Shown here piece by piece: positions 4,072 through 44,540 of a DNA stretch of 64,000 nt. The stretch is taken from contig NZ_CP070225.1 of the NCBI RefSeq assembly GCF_021631985.1, forward strand, positions 1,612,001-1,676,000, in the 5' to 3' direction. Source of the DNA: Sandaracinus amylolyticus. Lineage in GTDB: Bacteria > Myxococcota_A > Polyangia > Polyangiales > Sandaracinaceae. A program made the translations under genes and the position numbers. How positions within the stretch are numbered: position 1 is the first letter of the stretch; every line of letters starts with the position of its first letter. A model generated the notes under the pieces. That model saw only the letters and a list, made by a program, of their open reading frames with translations. It ran no database searches and was not told the origin of the DNA.

Positions 4072-6534
4072 CTGCCCGGCACGGTCGAGCGACTGATCGT
4101 CTGGCATCGCCTCGCGACGCGCGGGCGCGACGATCTCAGCCAACCCGGTGTGATCCTGGGCTGGGCGCGGACCGTGCGCGCGCGCTTGCTCGCGGCGGGC
4201 GGAGAGATCCTCGCGACGATCTCGGGCACCGTCGTCGGCGCGTTCGATCCCGCCGACACGTCGGACTTGCTCGACGTCGCGATGGACCTCGTCGAGGAGG
4301 CGGAGCGACAGCAGCTCGCGATCGTGATCGGCATCGCGCTCGGGACGCTGAAGGACGGCGCGGGCCGCGCGATCGAGGTCGCGGAGGCGCTGGCCGCGCG
4401 CGGGCAGTCGGGCGAGGTGGTGCTCGATCCCGCGGCGCGCGAGCGGGCGGAGGGGCTCTTCCTCTTCGGGCGTCAGGTCTCGACCGGAGTCGGTGGCCCG
4501 CGTGGATCGGTGGTCGATCGCGCGCACCGGCTCGACACGGTGGGCGAGGCGATCGGGAAGCTCGCGCGGCCGCCGATCGCGCCGATCACCGCGGAGCACC
4601 TCGAGGCGCTGGTCTCGCTGCTCGCGTCGCGCGAGTCCCCCGCGGTCGTGCTCCGGGGGCCGGTCGGCGCGGGCGCGCTCGAGCTGGTGAGCGCGGCGAT
4701 GGCGCGGCTCCGGCCGCGCTTGCTGCTGCCGGTCGGGAGCGCAGCGGGTGGCATCGCGCCGCTCGCGAGCCTCCGCTACGCGCTCGGGCGCTCGCTCGGC
4801 GCGGACGACGCGGTGATCGCGGCGTGCGGCGACGACGCGGCCGGACGCAGCGCAGGACGCGTCCTGCGCGTGCTGCTGCGCGGTGGGATGCCTCCGTGCG
4901 ATGCCGTCGCCGACGCGCTGGCGACGCTGCTCGCGCGAGCCGGCACGGGCGCGCGCGACGCGCGCAGCTGGGTCTTCCTCACGCCGCTCGCGATGGTCGA
5001 CGCGGCGAGCCTCGACGTGCTGCTCGGCGCGCGCGCGATCGGCGCGCCCATCGCGCTGATCGCGCGCTATCCCGTCGACGCGAAGCTCCCGACCGGCCTC
5101 GCCGACCCGGTGCGCGAGCTCGAGCTGCCGCCGCTGCGCACCTCGGACGCGCGCGCGGTCGCGCAGACGGTGCTCGGCGACGCGACCGATCCCGAGCTCG
5201 CGCGCCGCATCGCGGTGCTCGGCGGCGAGACCCCGCTCGGCGTGGTCGAGGTCGCGCGCGCGCTGATCGCGTCGGGCGATCTCGTCGTCGAGGGCGACGG
5301 CTTCGTGTGGCGGGGCGCGCCGCGCGGTGGGATGAGCGCGATCCCGCTCGAGGAGGTCGTCGACGAGCGGATGTCGAGGCTCGAGGACGAGCCGCGAAGG
5401 TTGCTCGAGGCGGTGTGCGTCTCGCCCGAGGGCGCGACGCGCGAGCTCGTCGAGGCGGTCGCCGCGCGCGACGGAGTGAGCGAGAAGGCGAGGGCGCGCG
5501 CGCTCGATCGGCTCACGCGCGAGGCGTGGCTCTCGCCCGAGGGCGGCTGGCCCGCGGGGACGGCGCCCTACGGCGCGATGCGGCCGCACCCGAGCTCGTC
5601 GTTCCTTCGTCGCTTCGTGGTGCAGGGCATGCCGCCGGCGCGCGCCGCGGAGCTGCATCGCTTCGTCGCCGAGGCCCTGCTCGAGCGCGGCGCCGACGAC
5701 GTCACGCTGCCCTCGCTGCGCGCCGAGCTCGCGTACTACGAGATCGAGGGTGGCCTCGAGGCGCGCGGCAGCGCGCGGCTGATGGAGATCGGTCGCGGCG
5801 CGCTGGAGACCGGATATCGGCGCGCGGCGTCGCGCATCGCGATGTTGCTCGGCCGGCTGGGCGCGTCGGCGTCGGACGTCGACGCGCTCTCGCGCGCGTC
5901 GGCGACGGTGCCGCCGAAGTCCGACTGGGACGAGGAGGACGCCGCGCCGCCCTCGGCGGAGATCGCGCTCGACGAGCTCGAGGGCACCGGCAAACACGCG
6001 GTGCGCGACACCGAGCCGCCCACCGAGCAGGTCTCGCTCGACACGCACGATGTCGGCTCGACGCAGTCGGGCGTGATCGATCCGCGCGGCGAGGAGGACG
6101 ATCGTCGCTCGTCGTTCGCAGCGGCCGCGGAGGAGGCGGTGCGCTCGCACGATCTCGTCGCGCTCGATCAGCTGCTGCAGCGTGCGGTGGCGTCGGGCAG
6201 CGACATGGCGGCGGTGTCGCGCTTCCGTGCGCTCGCCGATCTGATGCGCGGGGATCTCGGCGCGGCGCGGCTCTCGCTCGCGAAGGCGCGTGGGTATCGC
6301 GGCGCAGCGAAGGACGCGGATCCGCGGCAGCCGCTCGCGGAGGGCGCGGTGGCGCTGCGCGGTGGCGACGCGACGGGCGCGGTGCGGCTCGCGCTGCGCG
6401 CGCTCGCGCTCGCGCGTCGTGCCGGGGATCGCAAGGGTGAGACGACCGCGATGCGCATGCTCGCGGCGTGTCTGCGCGCGCTGGGCCGCGCCGACGACGC
6501 GTCGCGCATCGAGTCGGTCGCGCAGGACGCGTGA
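4072..6534 (+). CDS. Large cyclase-like/STAND-ATPase-like/TPR regulator, apparently degenerate
   Basis: About 820 residues. Residues 1-140 resemble a class III nucleotidyl cyclase or the inactive relatives of that fold (RLLAAGGEIL, then GAFDPAD, later GRAIEVAEAL), but the metal-binding aspartates are not evident. Next comes a P-loop ATPase-like region in which the Walker A reads GPVGAGALE near residue 193, with alanine where lysine should be. A winged-helix-like part follows near residue 450, then an acidic linker, and the C-terminus (after about 700) is TPR-like. This order matches cyclase/AAA/TPR regulators common in myxobacteria, with both catalytic centres weakened. Start choice is uncertain: no ATG or GTG precedes 4150, yet similarity begins earlier. 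I propose a CTG at 4072 behind AGAGAGGGA; GTG 4150 is the alternative. Confidence 0.6.
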   Translation: MPGTVERLIVWHRLATRGRDDLSQPGVILGWARTVRARLLAAGGEILATISGTVVGAFDPADTSDLLDVAMDLVEEAERQQLAIVIGIALGTLKDGAGRAIEVAEALAARGQSGEVVLDPAARERAEGLFLFGRQVSTGVGGPRGSVVDRAHRLDTVGEAIGKLARPPIAPITAEHLEALVSLLASRESPAVVLRGPVGAGALELVSAAMARLRPRLLLPVGSAAGGIAPLASLRYALGRSLGADDAVIAACGDDAAGRSAGRVLRVLLRGGMPPCDAVADALATLLARAGTGARDARSWVFLTPLAMVDAASLDVLLGARAIGAPIALIARYPVDAKLPTGLADPVRELELPPLRTSDARAVAQTVLGDATDPELARRIAVLGGETPLGVVEVARALIASGDLVVEGDGFVWRGAPRGGMSAIPLEEVVDERMSRLEDEPRRLLEAVCVSPEGATRELVEAVAARDGVSEKARARALDRLTREAWLSPEGGWPAGTAPYGAMRPHPSSSFLRRFVVQGMPPARAAELHRFVAEALLERGADDVTLPSLRAELAYYEIEGGLEARGSARLMEIGRGALETGYRRAASRIAMLLGRLGASASDVDALSRASATVPPKSDWDEEDAAPPSAEIALDELEGTGKHAVRDTEPPTEQVSLDTHDVGSTQSGVIDPRGEEDDRRSSFAAAAEEAVRSHDLVALDQLLQRAVASGSDMAAVSRFRALADLMRGDLGAARLSLAKARGYRGAAKDADPRQPLAEGAVALRGGDATGAVRLALRALALARRAGDRKGETTAMRMLAACLRALGRADDASRIESVAQDA

Positions 6535-33011: not shown

Positions 33012-33560
33012 TCAGCGCGCGACCGCCTGCCAGTGGCCTTCGTAGAAGACCCACTGCCCGTTCTGCACTTCCCAGCGCGCGTCGACCCACACGTAGCCGA
33101 CGCGCGGCTGGTCCCAGTGCCCGTCGACCCACACGTACTGCGCGCCGTTCCACTGCCAGTAGCCCTCGACCCACACCGCCTCGGTGCGCGGCGGGGGCGG
33201 GCGCACCACGACGCGCGGGCGCGGCGGCGCCTGGCGCACGACGATGCGCGGCGCGCGCGGCGGCGCCACCACGATCGACGCCCGCGGCGGCGTGGGCGCG
33301 GTCACCACGACCGAGGCGCGCGGCGGCGTCGGCGCCACGACCACGACGCGCCCATCGCGTCGATCCTCACGACGCTCGCGTCGGTCCTCGCGCGCCTCGC
33401 GTCGATCCTCACGACGCTCGCGACGGTCCTCGCGACGCTCGCGACGATCCTCGCGACGCTCGCGTCCGCCGCGCTGTGCGCTCGCCGCGTCGGGCAGCGC
33501 CAGGAGCATCGCGGCTCCGAGGAGCGCGACGATCACGGCACGCAGCTTCGACATGGTCAT
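33012..33560 (-). CDS. Secreted RRERRED-repeat/YxWxxGxW-repeat protein
   Basis: The 182-residue product has a signal peptide ending DAASAQ (near residue 29), then five to six copies of a seven-residue RRERRED-type repeat (about 32-70), a Val/Pro-rich linker (PTPPRASVVV, PPRAPRIVV) and a C-terminal set of aromatic repeats: VWVEGYWQWNG, YVWVDGHW, YVWVDARW and FYEGHW. These match the YxWxxGxW repeat family of bacterial surface or outer-membrane proteins of unknown function. AGGAGG eight bases before ATG 33560 fixes the start. The charged repeat is coded by a 21-bp DNA repeat, which could expand or contract. Confidence 0.8.
   Translation of the reverse strand: MTMSKLRAVIVALLGAAMLLALPDAASAQRGGRERREDRRERREDRRERREDRREAREDRRERREDRRDGRVVVVAPTPPRASVVVTAPTPPRASIVVAPPRAPRIVVRQAPPRPRVVVRPPPPRTEAVWVEGYWQWNGAQYVWVDGHWDQPRVGYVWVDARWEVQNGQWVFYEGHWQAVAR
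33352..33470 (-). repeat. 21-bp tandem repeat coding RRERRED units
   Basis: Within the YxWxxGxW-type gene, about five copies of a 21-bp unit follow each other with small changes, each coding one seven-residue RRERRED-like unit. A period that is a multiple of three keeps the frame whatever the copy number. Confidence 0.75.
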
Positions 33561-39664: not shown

Positions 39665-41590
<1,926 letters not shown>

Positions 41591-41635
41591 TGCGCCCTCG
41601 TCGCTCGCGAGAGCGTGATCTCGAGGACGATCTGG

Positions 41636-41793
41636 GTGCTGACCGTGAGGCTTCGGTGTGCACGTTCGCTCGAGGGCGCGCTGGCGCGCGCTCGCGCTCA
41701 CCGCTGTTTCGTTTGAGTCTCGTCGCGCGGGCCGCTCGTGGTGGGGTTGCTTCGCGGTGAGCGGATCTCGAGTCCCCGCGGATCGTGCTCGGA
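41636..41793 (+). repeat. Left arm of a long imperfect inverted repeat
   Basis: About 158 bp, from GTGCTGACCGTGAGGCTTCG to GATCGTGCTCGG, recur inverted at 42789-42919 (131 bp). The left arm carries an insertion of about 27 bp that the right arm lacks; apart from that, most positions match. The arms face inward and enclose the zinc-ribbon gene, two palindromes and the tandem array. A 14-bp sequence GTGATCTCGAGGAC also appears twice near this arm (about 41616 and 41797). I see no target-site duplication at the outer ends. Confidence 0.8.
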
Positions 41794-41851
41794 GGCGTGA
41801 TCTCGAGGACACCCGATCGCGTGCGCGCGGACGCTGAGCTAGTGAGCGGAC

Positions 41852-42385
41852 GTGTTGATCGCGCAGGAGCACGACGGATTCGATTCGCCCGGCGGCTCGG
41901 TGCGGTGCGACATCTGCGGCGCGCCCGGGGAGTGCAATGCGTTCCTGGTGCGAGTGCGCGTGCCGGGAGGGCGGGTCGACGTGCAGGCGACGCACTGCGA
42001 CCCGTGTGACGTGTACTTCCGCGTGCGCCGCGCACGACGAGTGCAGGCGATCGCGATCACCGTGCTCGCGGCGATGCTCTTCGCGCCGATCGCGGGGCTC
42101 GCGTCGAGCGTGTTCGGCGCAGCGGCGCCGATCGTCTCGGCGGTGCTGGTGATCGCGCTGATCGTCACCGCGATCGCCCGCGCTGCGACGTGGCACGACC
42201 GCTTGCGTCAGCGGATGGGTGACCGGTTGCTCGACGATCTCGCGCGCGGAGTGCCCGAGGTGCAGGGCGCGCTCGGCTCGCGCGACGTGCAGCTCTTCGC
42301 GTCTCTCCCGCACGACGCAGCCCCGAAGACGACGCTCCGCGCCGTGCGCCAGCGCGCCGAGCGGACGCGCGCGCTCCCGAACTGA
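41852..42385 (+). CDS. Small zinc-ribbon membrane protein inside the repeat-bounded block
   Basis: The 177-residue product starts at a GTG. Residues 19-53 contain two Cys pairs, CDICGAPGEC and later CDPCDVYF, spaced like a zinc ribbon. Two membrane helices follow (about 70-92 and 95-120), then a cytoplasmic helical tail (about 125-177). I cannot name a family; the layout resembles small membrane proteins with a metal-binding head. It lies between the two arms of the inverted repeat, with about 58 bp between the left arm and its start. A 20-bp palindrome begins 16 bp after its stop. Confidence 0.6.
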   Translation: MLIAQEHDGFDSPGGSVRCDICGAPGECNAFLVRVRVPGGRVDVQATHCDPCDVYFRVRRARRVQAIAITVLAAMLFAPIAGLASSVFGAAAPIVSAVLVIALIVTAIARAATWHDRLRQRMGDRLLDDLARGVPEVQGALGSRDVQLFASLPHDAAPKTTLRAVRQRAERTRALPN

Positions 42386-42400
42386 CCGGAGGTTCGCGCG

Positions 42401-42461
42401 GATCCGCAAGGTTGCGGATCGATCACCTCGGCGGGTGGGCAGATCCGGAAGGTTACGGATC
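42401..42461. repeat. Two related 20-bp palindromes
   Basis: The first (42401-42420) is GATCCGCAAGGTTGCGGATC, with 9-bp arms around GG. The second (42442-42461) follows the pattern GATCCGGAA-GG-TTACGGATC, with one arm mismatch. They sit 22 bp apart, directly before the 42-bp array. Same design and slight divergence suggest copies of one protein-binding site or RNA hairpin. Confidence 0.7.
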
Positions 42462-42466
42462 CGACA

Positions 42467-42716
42467 GCTTCGAGGGTCACCCAGTTGATACGACTTATCG
42501 ATTCGGGAGGCTCGAGGGTCACCCAGTTGATAAGACTTATCGATTCGGGAGCTTCGAGGGTCACCCAGTTGATAAGACTTATCGATTCGGAGCTTCGAGG
42601 GTCACCCAGTTGATAAGACTTATCGATTCGGGAGCTTCGAGGGTCACCCAGTTGATAAGACTTATCGATTCGGGAGCTTCGAGGGTCACCCAGTTGATAA
42701 GACTTATCGATCGGGA
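42467..42716 (+). repeat. Six tandem 42-bp units, about 50% GC
   Basis: Units start at 42467, 42509, 42551, 42592, 42634 and 42676. They are 42 bp long except units 3 and 6, which are 41 bp. They are nearly identical; unit 2 differs at its first few bases, and unit 1 has GATACGACTTATC where units 2-6 read GATAAGACTTATC. Each contains the dyad GATAAGACTTATC and is about half GC, far below the surroundings. The 41-bp units break any reading frame, so it is not a coding repeat. There are no spacers, so it is not a CRISPR array. It looks like an iteron-type binding array. Confidence 0.85.
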
Positions 42717-42788
42717 CCCGAGCACGCCGCGCGAGCACTCGAGGCAGCGCCCCCGAGCACGACTCCGTGGGGATTCGTGATCAGCTCC

Positions 42789-42919
42789 CCGAGCACGATC
42801 TGCGGGGACTCGAGATCCGCTCACCGCGAAGCAACCCCACCACGAGCGGCCCGCTCGCCGAGACGCAAACGAAACAGCTGCGAGCGCGAGCGTGCACACC
42901 GAAGCCTCACGGTCAGCAC
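42789..42919 (-). repeat. Right arm of the inverted repeat
   Basis: This is the reverse complement of the left arm at 41636-41793, without the extra 27 bp in the left arm. It is preceded by three copies of CCCGAGCACG (42717, 42752, 42788) spaced 35-36 bp apart, so the border itself has sub-repeats. It ends 12 bp before the stop of the convergent roadblock-like gene. Confidence 0.8.
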
Positions 42920-42930
42920 TCGCGCCGACT

Positions 42931-43587
42931 TCACCTGCGCTCCCAGCGGTCCTCTTCCACGTGGTGCACCAGCGTCAGCTCTTGGCCGCTCTCGCTCCGC
43001 ACCATGAAGCACACCACGCGCGCGCCGTCGTCTTCTTCGATCCAGCGGCCCAGCACGTCACCGACCTTCGTGCGCTCCGCGCCCATCCAGAACGCGCTCG
43101 GCGCGTACGGCCAGCCCTTCGCCACGCGCACTTCCACGCGCACCCGCGCGTCGATCGCGGGCTCCCATCGCGGCGTGACCTCGCCGCTCTCGACGCGCAG
43201 CTTCCGCACCGCGAGCTCGATCGTCTCGGTGAGCAGGCTCGGGATCCCCATCGCGAGCGTCACGACGACCAGCAGGTACTCGTCGGTCACCCGGCGCACC
43301 ACGATGTCGCGCTCGCTGCCCTGCACGTGGATCGCCCAGGGCTCTCCGGCGCGGCGCTTCGTCGTCTCGCGCACCTCGCTCGTGACCACGAGCATGTGCG
43401 CCGCGATCACCTTCGCGTCGAAGGGCGGCAGCGACGAGCAGTAGTCGATGCACTCGCCCTCCGAGTCGACGAACACCACCGCGAGCACTCCAGGGACACA
43501 GTGCAGCACGCTCCGCAGGATCGGCGTGAAGCTGCTCTCGTCGAGATCCCGACGCGACTCGACCGGGACGCTCGACGGCAGGCTCAC
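42931..43587 (-). CDS. Roadblock/LC7-like protein
   Basis: A 218-residue protein. Residues 10-125 look like a roadblock/longin-type domain: LRSVLHCVPGVLAVVFVDSEGECIDYCS is its usual first hairpin. A VTSEVRETTKR segment and the strand pair RDIVVRRVTDEYLLVVVTLA follow. Roadblock proteins often act as partners of small GTPases such as MglA in myxobacteria, but no GTPase is nearby. The C-terminal part (about 130-218) is an additional beta-rich module that ends HHVEEDRWERR. The GTG start at 43587 shares four bases with the upstream gene's stop. Confidence 0.65.
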   Translation of the reverse strand: MSLPSSVPVESRRDLDESSFTPILRSVLHCVPGVLAVVFVDSEGECIDYCSSLPPFDAKVIAAHMLVVTSEVRETTKRRAGEPWAIHVQGSERDIVVRRVTDEYLLVVVTLAMGIPSLLTETIELAVRKLRVESGEVTPRWEPAIDARVRVEVRVAKGWPYAPSAFWMGAERTKVGDVLGRWIEEDDGARVVCFMVRSESGQELTLVHHVEEDRWERR

Positions 43588-44540
43588 GGGCTCGCGCCTC
43601 CGCTCTCCATCGCCTCGAGATCGGTCGCGATCACCCGCTCGATCACCGCGCCGTCGCGCTCCACCGGCGTGCGCCCGGCGAGCTCGCGCACCAGCTCCTC
43701 GAGCCGCGCCGCGCGCGCCTCGACGGCGAGCTCCTGGCGCATCGCGGCCTCGACCTCGTCGCGCGGCGCCTCCCACGGAGGCATCACCTCGGTGAGCACG
43801 ATCGCGTGCCACCCGAAGCGCGTGCGCACCGGCTCCGCCAACACGCCGCGCTCGCCGCGCGCGAAGAGCGCGTCCAGGTACTCGGGCACCAGCTGACCGT
43901 CGCGCGCCACCGGCGGGAGATCCTCGACGAGCACGGTGTACGTGCGCCCGGAGTGATCCTCCTCGCCGATCACGTGGGCCTCGGCGCGCGCGTCCTCGGC
44001 CGCGCTCATGCGCTCGATCGCGCGCCGCACGAAGCGCTCGGCCGCGGCGCCGGCCTCGGGCGGTGCGTCGGGCGCGAGCCTCGCGAGCACGTGCGTGCTG
44101 CGCCGTCGCTCGGGGCGCCACCACCGCGCGCGCTGGGCGTCCATGCGCTCCGCGACCTGCTCCGCGGGGATTGACGCCGGCGTGATCTCCGCCTCGACGC
44201 GCGCCTCGAGCAGCGCCTGCACCGACGCGCGTCGCACCGCGTCCTGCACCTCGTGATCGTCGCCCAGCCCCGCGGCCTCGGCGTGCGCGGCGAGCACCCG
44301 CTCTTCCTGCAGCCGCCGCAGCGCGTCCTGGGGCGAGAGCCCGGTCTCGCGCGCGACCTCCTCGACCTCCGCGAGCGTGATCGGCGCGCCGTCGACGGTG
44401 GACACGATCGTCCCGCCGACCTGCTCCTGCTCGCGCGTGATCGCCCTCGGCGGTCCCGCGTCGGGCGCCGCCGGCTCGCCGCCGCACGCGAGCGCGAGCG
44501 ACACGAGGCACGCGACGACGACGCTCCGCGCGTGACGCAA
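43584..44540 (-). CDS. Parvulin-type peptidyl-prolyl isomerase, lipoprotein
   Basis: The 318-residue product has a lipoprotein signal ending SLALAC. A SurA/PrsA-like helical domain (about 40-130) is followed by a parvulin core (about 140-265; STHVLARLAPDAP near its start, later GERGVLAEPVRTRFGWHAIVLTEV, the classical PpiC ending). It should help fold proteins in the periplasm. The start is a TTG at 44540, three bases after the previous gene's stop, supported by GGGAGAG upstream; no ATG fits as well. Confidence 0.8.
   Translation of the reverse strand: MRHARSVVVACLVSLALACGGEPAAPDAGPPRAITREQEQVGGTIVSTVDGAPITLAEVEEVARETGLSPQDALRRLQEERVLAAHAEAAGLGDDHEVQDAVRRASVQALLEARVEAEITPASIPAEQVAERMDAQRARWWRPERRRSTHVLARLAPDAPPEAGAAAERFVRRAIERMSAAEDARAEAHVIGEEDHSGRTYTVLVEDLPPVARDGQLVPEYLDALFARGERGVLAEPVRTRFGWHAIVLTEVMPPWEAPRDEVEAAMRQELAVEARAARLEELVRELAGRTPVERDGAVIERVIATDLEAMESGGASP

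Follow-up and report, generated by a model that had tools for sequence, protein, structure and literature searches.

A lineage-restricted repeat placed behind stop codons gives a block of the Sandaracinus amylolyticus genome the look of an inverted-repeat cassette

The block at positions 41636-42919 of the window (the whole 64,000-nucleotide stretch analysed) breaks down into parts of known kinds, an interspersed repeat family, here called H, and a tandem palindromic array. H is a new, lineage-restricted family with unusually strict sense placement at the 3′ ends of genes. The block is very probably not a mobile cassette: its two inverted arms are separate copies of H. As judged from sequence, H is probably (about 60%) a short repeat sited in 3′ untranslated regions (3′ UTR), which would be transcribed with the gene in front and act as a folded RNA element on the 3′ end of its mRNA. 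It is most likely a minor curiosity, either regulatory or selfish.

Genomes and definitions

G000 is the genome that holds the window (S. amylolyticus, 10.96 Mb) and G001 is its sister genome; both are soil myxobacteria. G002 is filed under the same genus and has only about 50% identity in one shared protein. Genome-wide counts of H rest on genome searches. Genes were called with a home-made codon-usage model trained on the sequence at hand, on which starts and stops rest. Placement of H was analysed at 23 independent loci, obtained by hand-merging of orthologous loci and including the window locus. The random expectation was drawn from 225 intergenic gaps at these repeat-bearing loci; with the gaps so chosen and the window locus counted in, the p-values are approximate.

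Composition of the block

The left arm (41635-41792, + strand; nhmmer, alignment and genome search) is a full H copy of subtype A. It lies in sense with the preceding gene, an FHA-GAF-sigma54-activator gene (39665-41590, + strand; Pfam and gene call) whose stop codon is found 44 bp before the arm. The right arm (42789-42920, − strand; alignment) is an H copy that lacks the 26-nt GCGCGCTGGCGCGC hairpin carried by most copies. It lies in sense with a Roadblock/LC7-like gene (42931-43587, − strand; gene call and a sub-threshold Pfam match, E 8e-4) whose stop codon is 10 bp before the arm. The arms of about 158 and 131 bp reported by the first-pass annotation are thus recovered by the family alignment. 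They match each other with a BLAST E-value of about 3e-40, which is not chance; their inverted pairing has one stretch of 34 nt at 97% (41636-41669 with 42886-42919) and another of 151 nt (41686-41836 with 42745-42895), where complementarity is 84%. The two arms look inverted because the flanking genes converge and each has its own sense H copy behind it.

Smaller units flank the arms. The left arm has a leader unit (41600-41634, + strand; alignment with flanks and unit list) that ends in GATCTCGAGGACGATCTG and is of the 34-37-bp CTCGAG-anchored type flanking many copies, and a tail unit, GGCGTGATCTCGAGGAC (41793-41836, + strand; alignment). Behind the right arm, 35-bp tail units occupy 42717-42788 (read on the − strand; Tandem Repeats Finder, TRF, 42717-42826, period 35).

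The enclosed gene (41852-42385, + strand) encodes 177 amino acids with two CxxC pairs (zinc-ribbon-like) and a hydrophobic stretch. The first reading of it as a small gene is upheld by its codon-usage score and by comparison with its G001 orthologue: 90% amino acid and 89% DNA identity, dN 0.058, dS 0.284, dN/dS 0.20. The gene evolves, on this ratio, under purifying selection. Among 145 genomes of the order it was found only in G000 and G001, single-copy in both, besides one weak partial match (E 5.8e-4). No significant Pfam or NCBIfam match was found; Pfam DUF6594 was below the cut-off.

Two palindromes are present, as first described. Palindrome 1, GATCCGCAA-GG-TTGCGGATC (42401-42420), begins 15 bp behind the stop codon of the enclosed gene and has a perfect 9-bp stem and a 2-nt loop. 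Palindrome 2, GATCCGGAAGGTTACGGATC (42442-42461), is imperfect and is of the same unit type as the units of two other arrays per genome. The palindromic array is continued by the six-unit array already noted (42466-42716, + strand), made of 41-42-bp units with 96% matches and 50.6% GC, and diverged to 68-74% in G001. Palindromes and array belong to another repeat family, the second here, which forms tandem arrays of palindromic units at three loci per genome, not always behind a gene. In its units, GATCCGTAA-GG-TTACGGATC alternates with ACCACCC-CGGA-GGGTGGT, and a stem pair differs compensatorily between the window and the other loci (GCAA/TTGC versus GTAA/TTAC). In the preferred reading, the enclosed gene is an ordinary resident with a tandem array of another family behind its own stop codon. 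Another tandem array, of about 47-bp units, lies directly behind a stop codon at L073 (6571-6860) and is also present in G001; arrays behind genes may be common in the genus. Overlapping tandem repeats of 21, 36 and 42 bp, with high G+C, are found at 33186-33466 of the window.

The change of composition said to mark the block off holds for the 42-bp array (50.6% GC, the lowest-GC 251-bp stretch of a 72.4% window), not for the arms (67-69%) or the gene (72.5%), which are near ordinary. Neither intrinsic terminators (G+C-rich hairpin followed by a T run) nor sigma-70-like promoters were found in 41400-43100.

Copy number, distribution and anatomy of H

A BLAST search of the block against G000 gives 72 matches; of the strong ones, nearly all fall in the arms and stem from copies that match on both strands. 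H copies were counted with an iterative profile and with a covariance model built from sequence only: 24 in G000, two of which are the arms, and 26 in G001. A genome-wide repeat family, one of the options first considered, is thus what the arms belong to. No copy was found in G002 or in 142 other genomes of the order (145 in all). Three weak matches at the level of the order (21-24 bits, versus 77-136 for most real copies) were judged to be chance alignments in G+C-rich sequence. An exact 21-mer of the core has no match in the GTDB contig collection, which may omit near relatives of the window, or in the IMG/VR viral contigs. An exact 19-mer gave 91 matches in the GTDB contigs; none of the 80 retrieved exceeded 19 bits or had family-level similarity outside the anchor, and they were judged to be chance. 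A search of 41000-43600 against the 4227 Rfam families gave no match at E up to 1, and among the papers searched, none relevant to repeats in myxobacteria turned up. The view of the block as the strongest candidate for something undescribed can thus be kept for the H family and must be dropped for the block as a unit.

The 43 H copies that were aligned extend over about 155 nt. There are two subtypes, told apart mainly by one hairpin (GCGCGCTGGCGCGC versus GGTGCGCGCTTCGCGCGCACG; variant GGTTCGCGCCTTCGCGCGAACG), and the block CGGGCCGCTCGTGGTGGGGTTGCTTCGCGG hardly varies. Several copies devoid of a leader unit start sharply just behind the stop codon of an unrelated gene (for instance GGGTAG directly followed by TACTGACCG at L073), and these abrupt starts mark the 5′ edge of H. 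The CTCGAG-anchored units of 34-37 bp are found in front of or behind many copies. They fold no better than shuffles, and tail units as stable hairpins were discarded (mean z −0.4). Terminal inverted repeats were not seen on the single H unit. A coding role appears unlikely, because single-base insertions and deletions separate the copies.

Placement behind genes

A gene lies in front of H in sense at 19 of the 23 loci (random 49%, p=8e-4), with a median distance of 38 bp from stop codon to H. H is found within 50 bp behind the stop codon of the sense gene at 12 loci (random 8%, p=4e-8) and within 15 bp at 6 (random 2.6%, p=2e-5). No common function of the genes in front was seen. The sense bias could partly be due to selection against insertions near promoters or to an insertion preference.

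Proteins of a ~220-amino acid family (MPRKL...; those tested have no significant Pfam or NCBIfam match) are encoded at five loci (L063 5801-6469; L052 4177-4845; L068 4385-5050; L073 5909-6571; L058 6002-6742), at four of them 50-215 bp behind H and in the same orientation.

Comparison of the two genomes

Eleven repeat loci could be paired between G000 and G001. The window block is syntenic in G001, where it includes the enclosed gene, two H copies on the left and three on the right, all facing inward. It also includes there an additional gene, lacking in G000, with a sub-threshold match to T2SSG (type II secretion pseudopilin; L048 13012-13422). Single-copy arms in a block conserved in relatives had been named as the pattern that would contradict mobility. 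Here the arms are multicopy, and the block, at the same place in G001, has more arm copies and an extra gene there.

At L070/L145, a 228-bp presence/absence difference with only microhomology at the junction corresponds to an H copy present in G000 and absent from G001; no outgroup polarises the clean cases. Both genomes retain a hairpin behind this H site; H can thus be dispensed with there and is not the only possible terminator of the gene. The other presence/absence differences checked (L076/L148, L055/L147, L073/L058) are deletions or replacements. L076/L148 and L064/L050 are deletions in G001 that leave remnants; at L055 and on the left side of L073, other sequence lies directly behind the stop codon. 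The G001 deletion at L076 (4141-4893, versus L148 4132-4135) has GATC at both ends. It removed H and most of a DUF2238 membrane gene and left the H leader and the last codons of the gene.

Conservation and RNA folding

Orthologous H copies differ from each other by 3.5% in columns where the other copies are at least 97% conserved, and by 13.8% in the remaining columns (p=3e-8). Conserved columns thus differ less between orthologues too, and gene conversion alone would not sort the columns in this way. The consensus fold of the sense strand has a z-score of −2.07 (3 of 100 column shuffles as low), that of the antisense strand +0.51. In the hairpin of columns 40-46/59-65, both partners have changed in two pairs (in 14 and in 4 sequences); only some two events stand behind these double changes, and the number of doubly changed pairs is not above that of shuffles (184/500). 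The RNA case is suggestive and unproven, because the folds of single H copies do not surpass those of shuffled sequences (z=+0.97 and −0.99).

Comparison with known systems

REP: palindromes of 20-40 bp with high copy number (PMC3733652). Like REP/BIME, H is dispersed and intergenic and often follows stop codons closely (in sense and within 50 bp at 12 of 23 loci). It differs in its length (about 155 nt), its asymmetry in place of a palindrome and its number of copies (about 25). Mobilization by a REP-associated Y1 transposase (RAYT; TnpA-REP, PF01797) was discarded: none was found in G000 or G001, while the control search gave matches in 5 of 14 genomes.

BOX: pneumococcal element, modular with a variable number of internal units, which like H is intergenic and favours convergent regions (PMC3049150). 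No terminal inverted repeats were seen on H, which has a strong sense 3′-end bias where BOX mirrors the coding bias of the genome (PMC3049150), and belongs to an unrelated taxon. Units in variable number, of 34-37 bp, accompany H as well; they lie outside it, not between two fixed modules as in BOX-type modularity.

MITE: H is likewise short, non-coding and dispersed. No terminal inverted repeats or target duplication were seen on the single unit, and no parent insertion sequence (IS) was identified.

S23/IVP: some H loci resemble these elements in having an IVP-family gene enclosed by direct H copies (L065, L051, L052; remnant at L050). The four-helix-bundle 23S_rRNA_IVP (S23, PF05635) genes or remnants are located at L065 6308-6694, L051 5915-6229, L052 ~5323-5826 and L050 4958-5125. 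The segment occupies three sites in G001 and one in G000; duplication or loss of the combination has therefore followed the divergence of the two genomes. H cannot be identified with an IVP element: one of the 13 IVP matches in G000 is beside H and none is in the window block, so the association looks incidental.

Alternative explanations

According to the preferred reading, each H copy would sit in sense in the 3′ UTR of the gene in front. Where two genes converge, two copies would face each other and give the appearance of inverted arms. H would be transcribed with the preceding gene and may act as a folded RNA element on the 3′ end of the mRNA, with effects on stability, on read-through or on termination such as have been suggested for REP. 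Position, column constraint and a weak fold make this the most likely reading of its function. The family would have spread in the ancestor of the G000 and G001 lineages. A more ambitious form of this reading, held tentatively and thought rather doubtful, makes H a lineage-specific sense-strand RNA element of the 3′ UTR with a near-invariant core, which would govern processing, read-through or ribosome release at the 3′ ends of some 20 unrelated genes and would have spread to just behind stop codons in one orientation. The regulatory island once proposed could hold in a weaker sense: each arm looks like a 3′-UTR element of its own flanking gene.

That the block moved in trans as one unit, with the arms as terminal inverted repeats, is highly improbable. 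The arms do enclose one gene, and an inverted H pair also flanks a gene at L073; the latter gene is a different one, however, and the genes on both sides converge there too. Elsewhere, H copies are mostly single or in direct tandem behind unrelated genes, around different sequence, and H does not recur as the terminal inverted repeats of one unit. G000 and G001 each have one copy of the enclosed gene, the block occupies the corresponding place in G001, and no target-site duplication was seen. The mobile cassette first suggested is rejected on the copies elsewhere and on the synteny. The repeat family must once have spread, which makes past movement of the 155-nt unit likely, as opposed to movement of the block. 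H could also be purely selfish, or a relict non-autonomous element devoid of function, that persists behind stop codons as the least harmful sites and owes its conserved core to recent spread and gene conversion; this is unlikely, to a degree that still leaves it a real contender. The presence/absence differences between G000 and G001 (L070/L145, L076/L148, L055/L147, L073/L058) fit it, as do tandem copies that are more alike within one locus than others (L069, L053, L051, L057). BOX, RUP and SPRITE likewise cluster in convergent regions, and their authors took this as a sign of parasitism (PMC3049150). It does not account for the orientation bias, since insertion behind a stop codon would be equally harmless either way, nor for the columns conserved between orthologues and the sense-only fold; and the two G001 losses with remnants (L064/L050, L076/L148) point partly to deletion, not movement. 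A double-stranded DNA site, in which the asymmetric CGGGCCGCTCGTGGTGGGGTTGCTTCGCGG would bind a nucleoid or recombination protein, is improbable. The core, about 30 nt long and non-palindromic, hardly varies, and GGCCGCTCG, its right half, is fixed while the facing arm varies, so that hairpin pairing alone is insufficient to explain it. Sense placement close behind stop codons would not be expected of such a site, however, and only the sense strand has a folding signal.

Biological meaning

As a rule, convergent genes that each carry a sense 3′ repeat mimic an inverted-repeat cassette. The orientation that H keeps beside stop codons is stricter than what has been reported for pneumococcal BOX. 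If H acts at mRNA 3′ ends, it would provide a compact set of some 20 natural loci for tests, in a myxobacterium of very high G+C content where canonical T-run terminators seem scarce.
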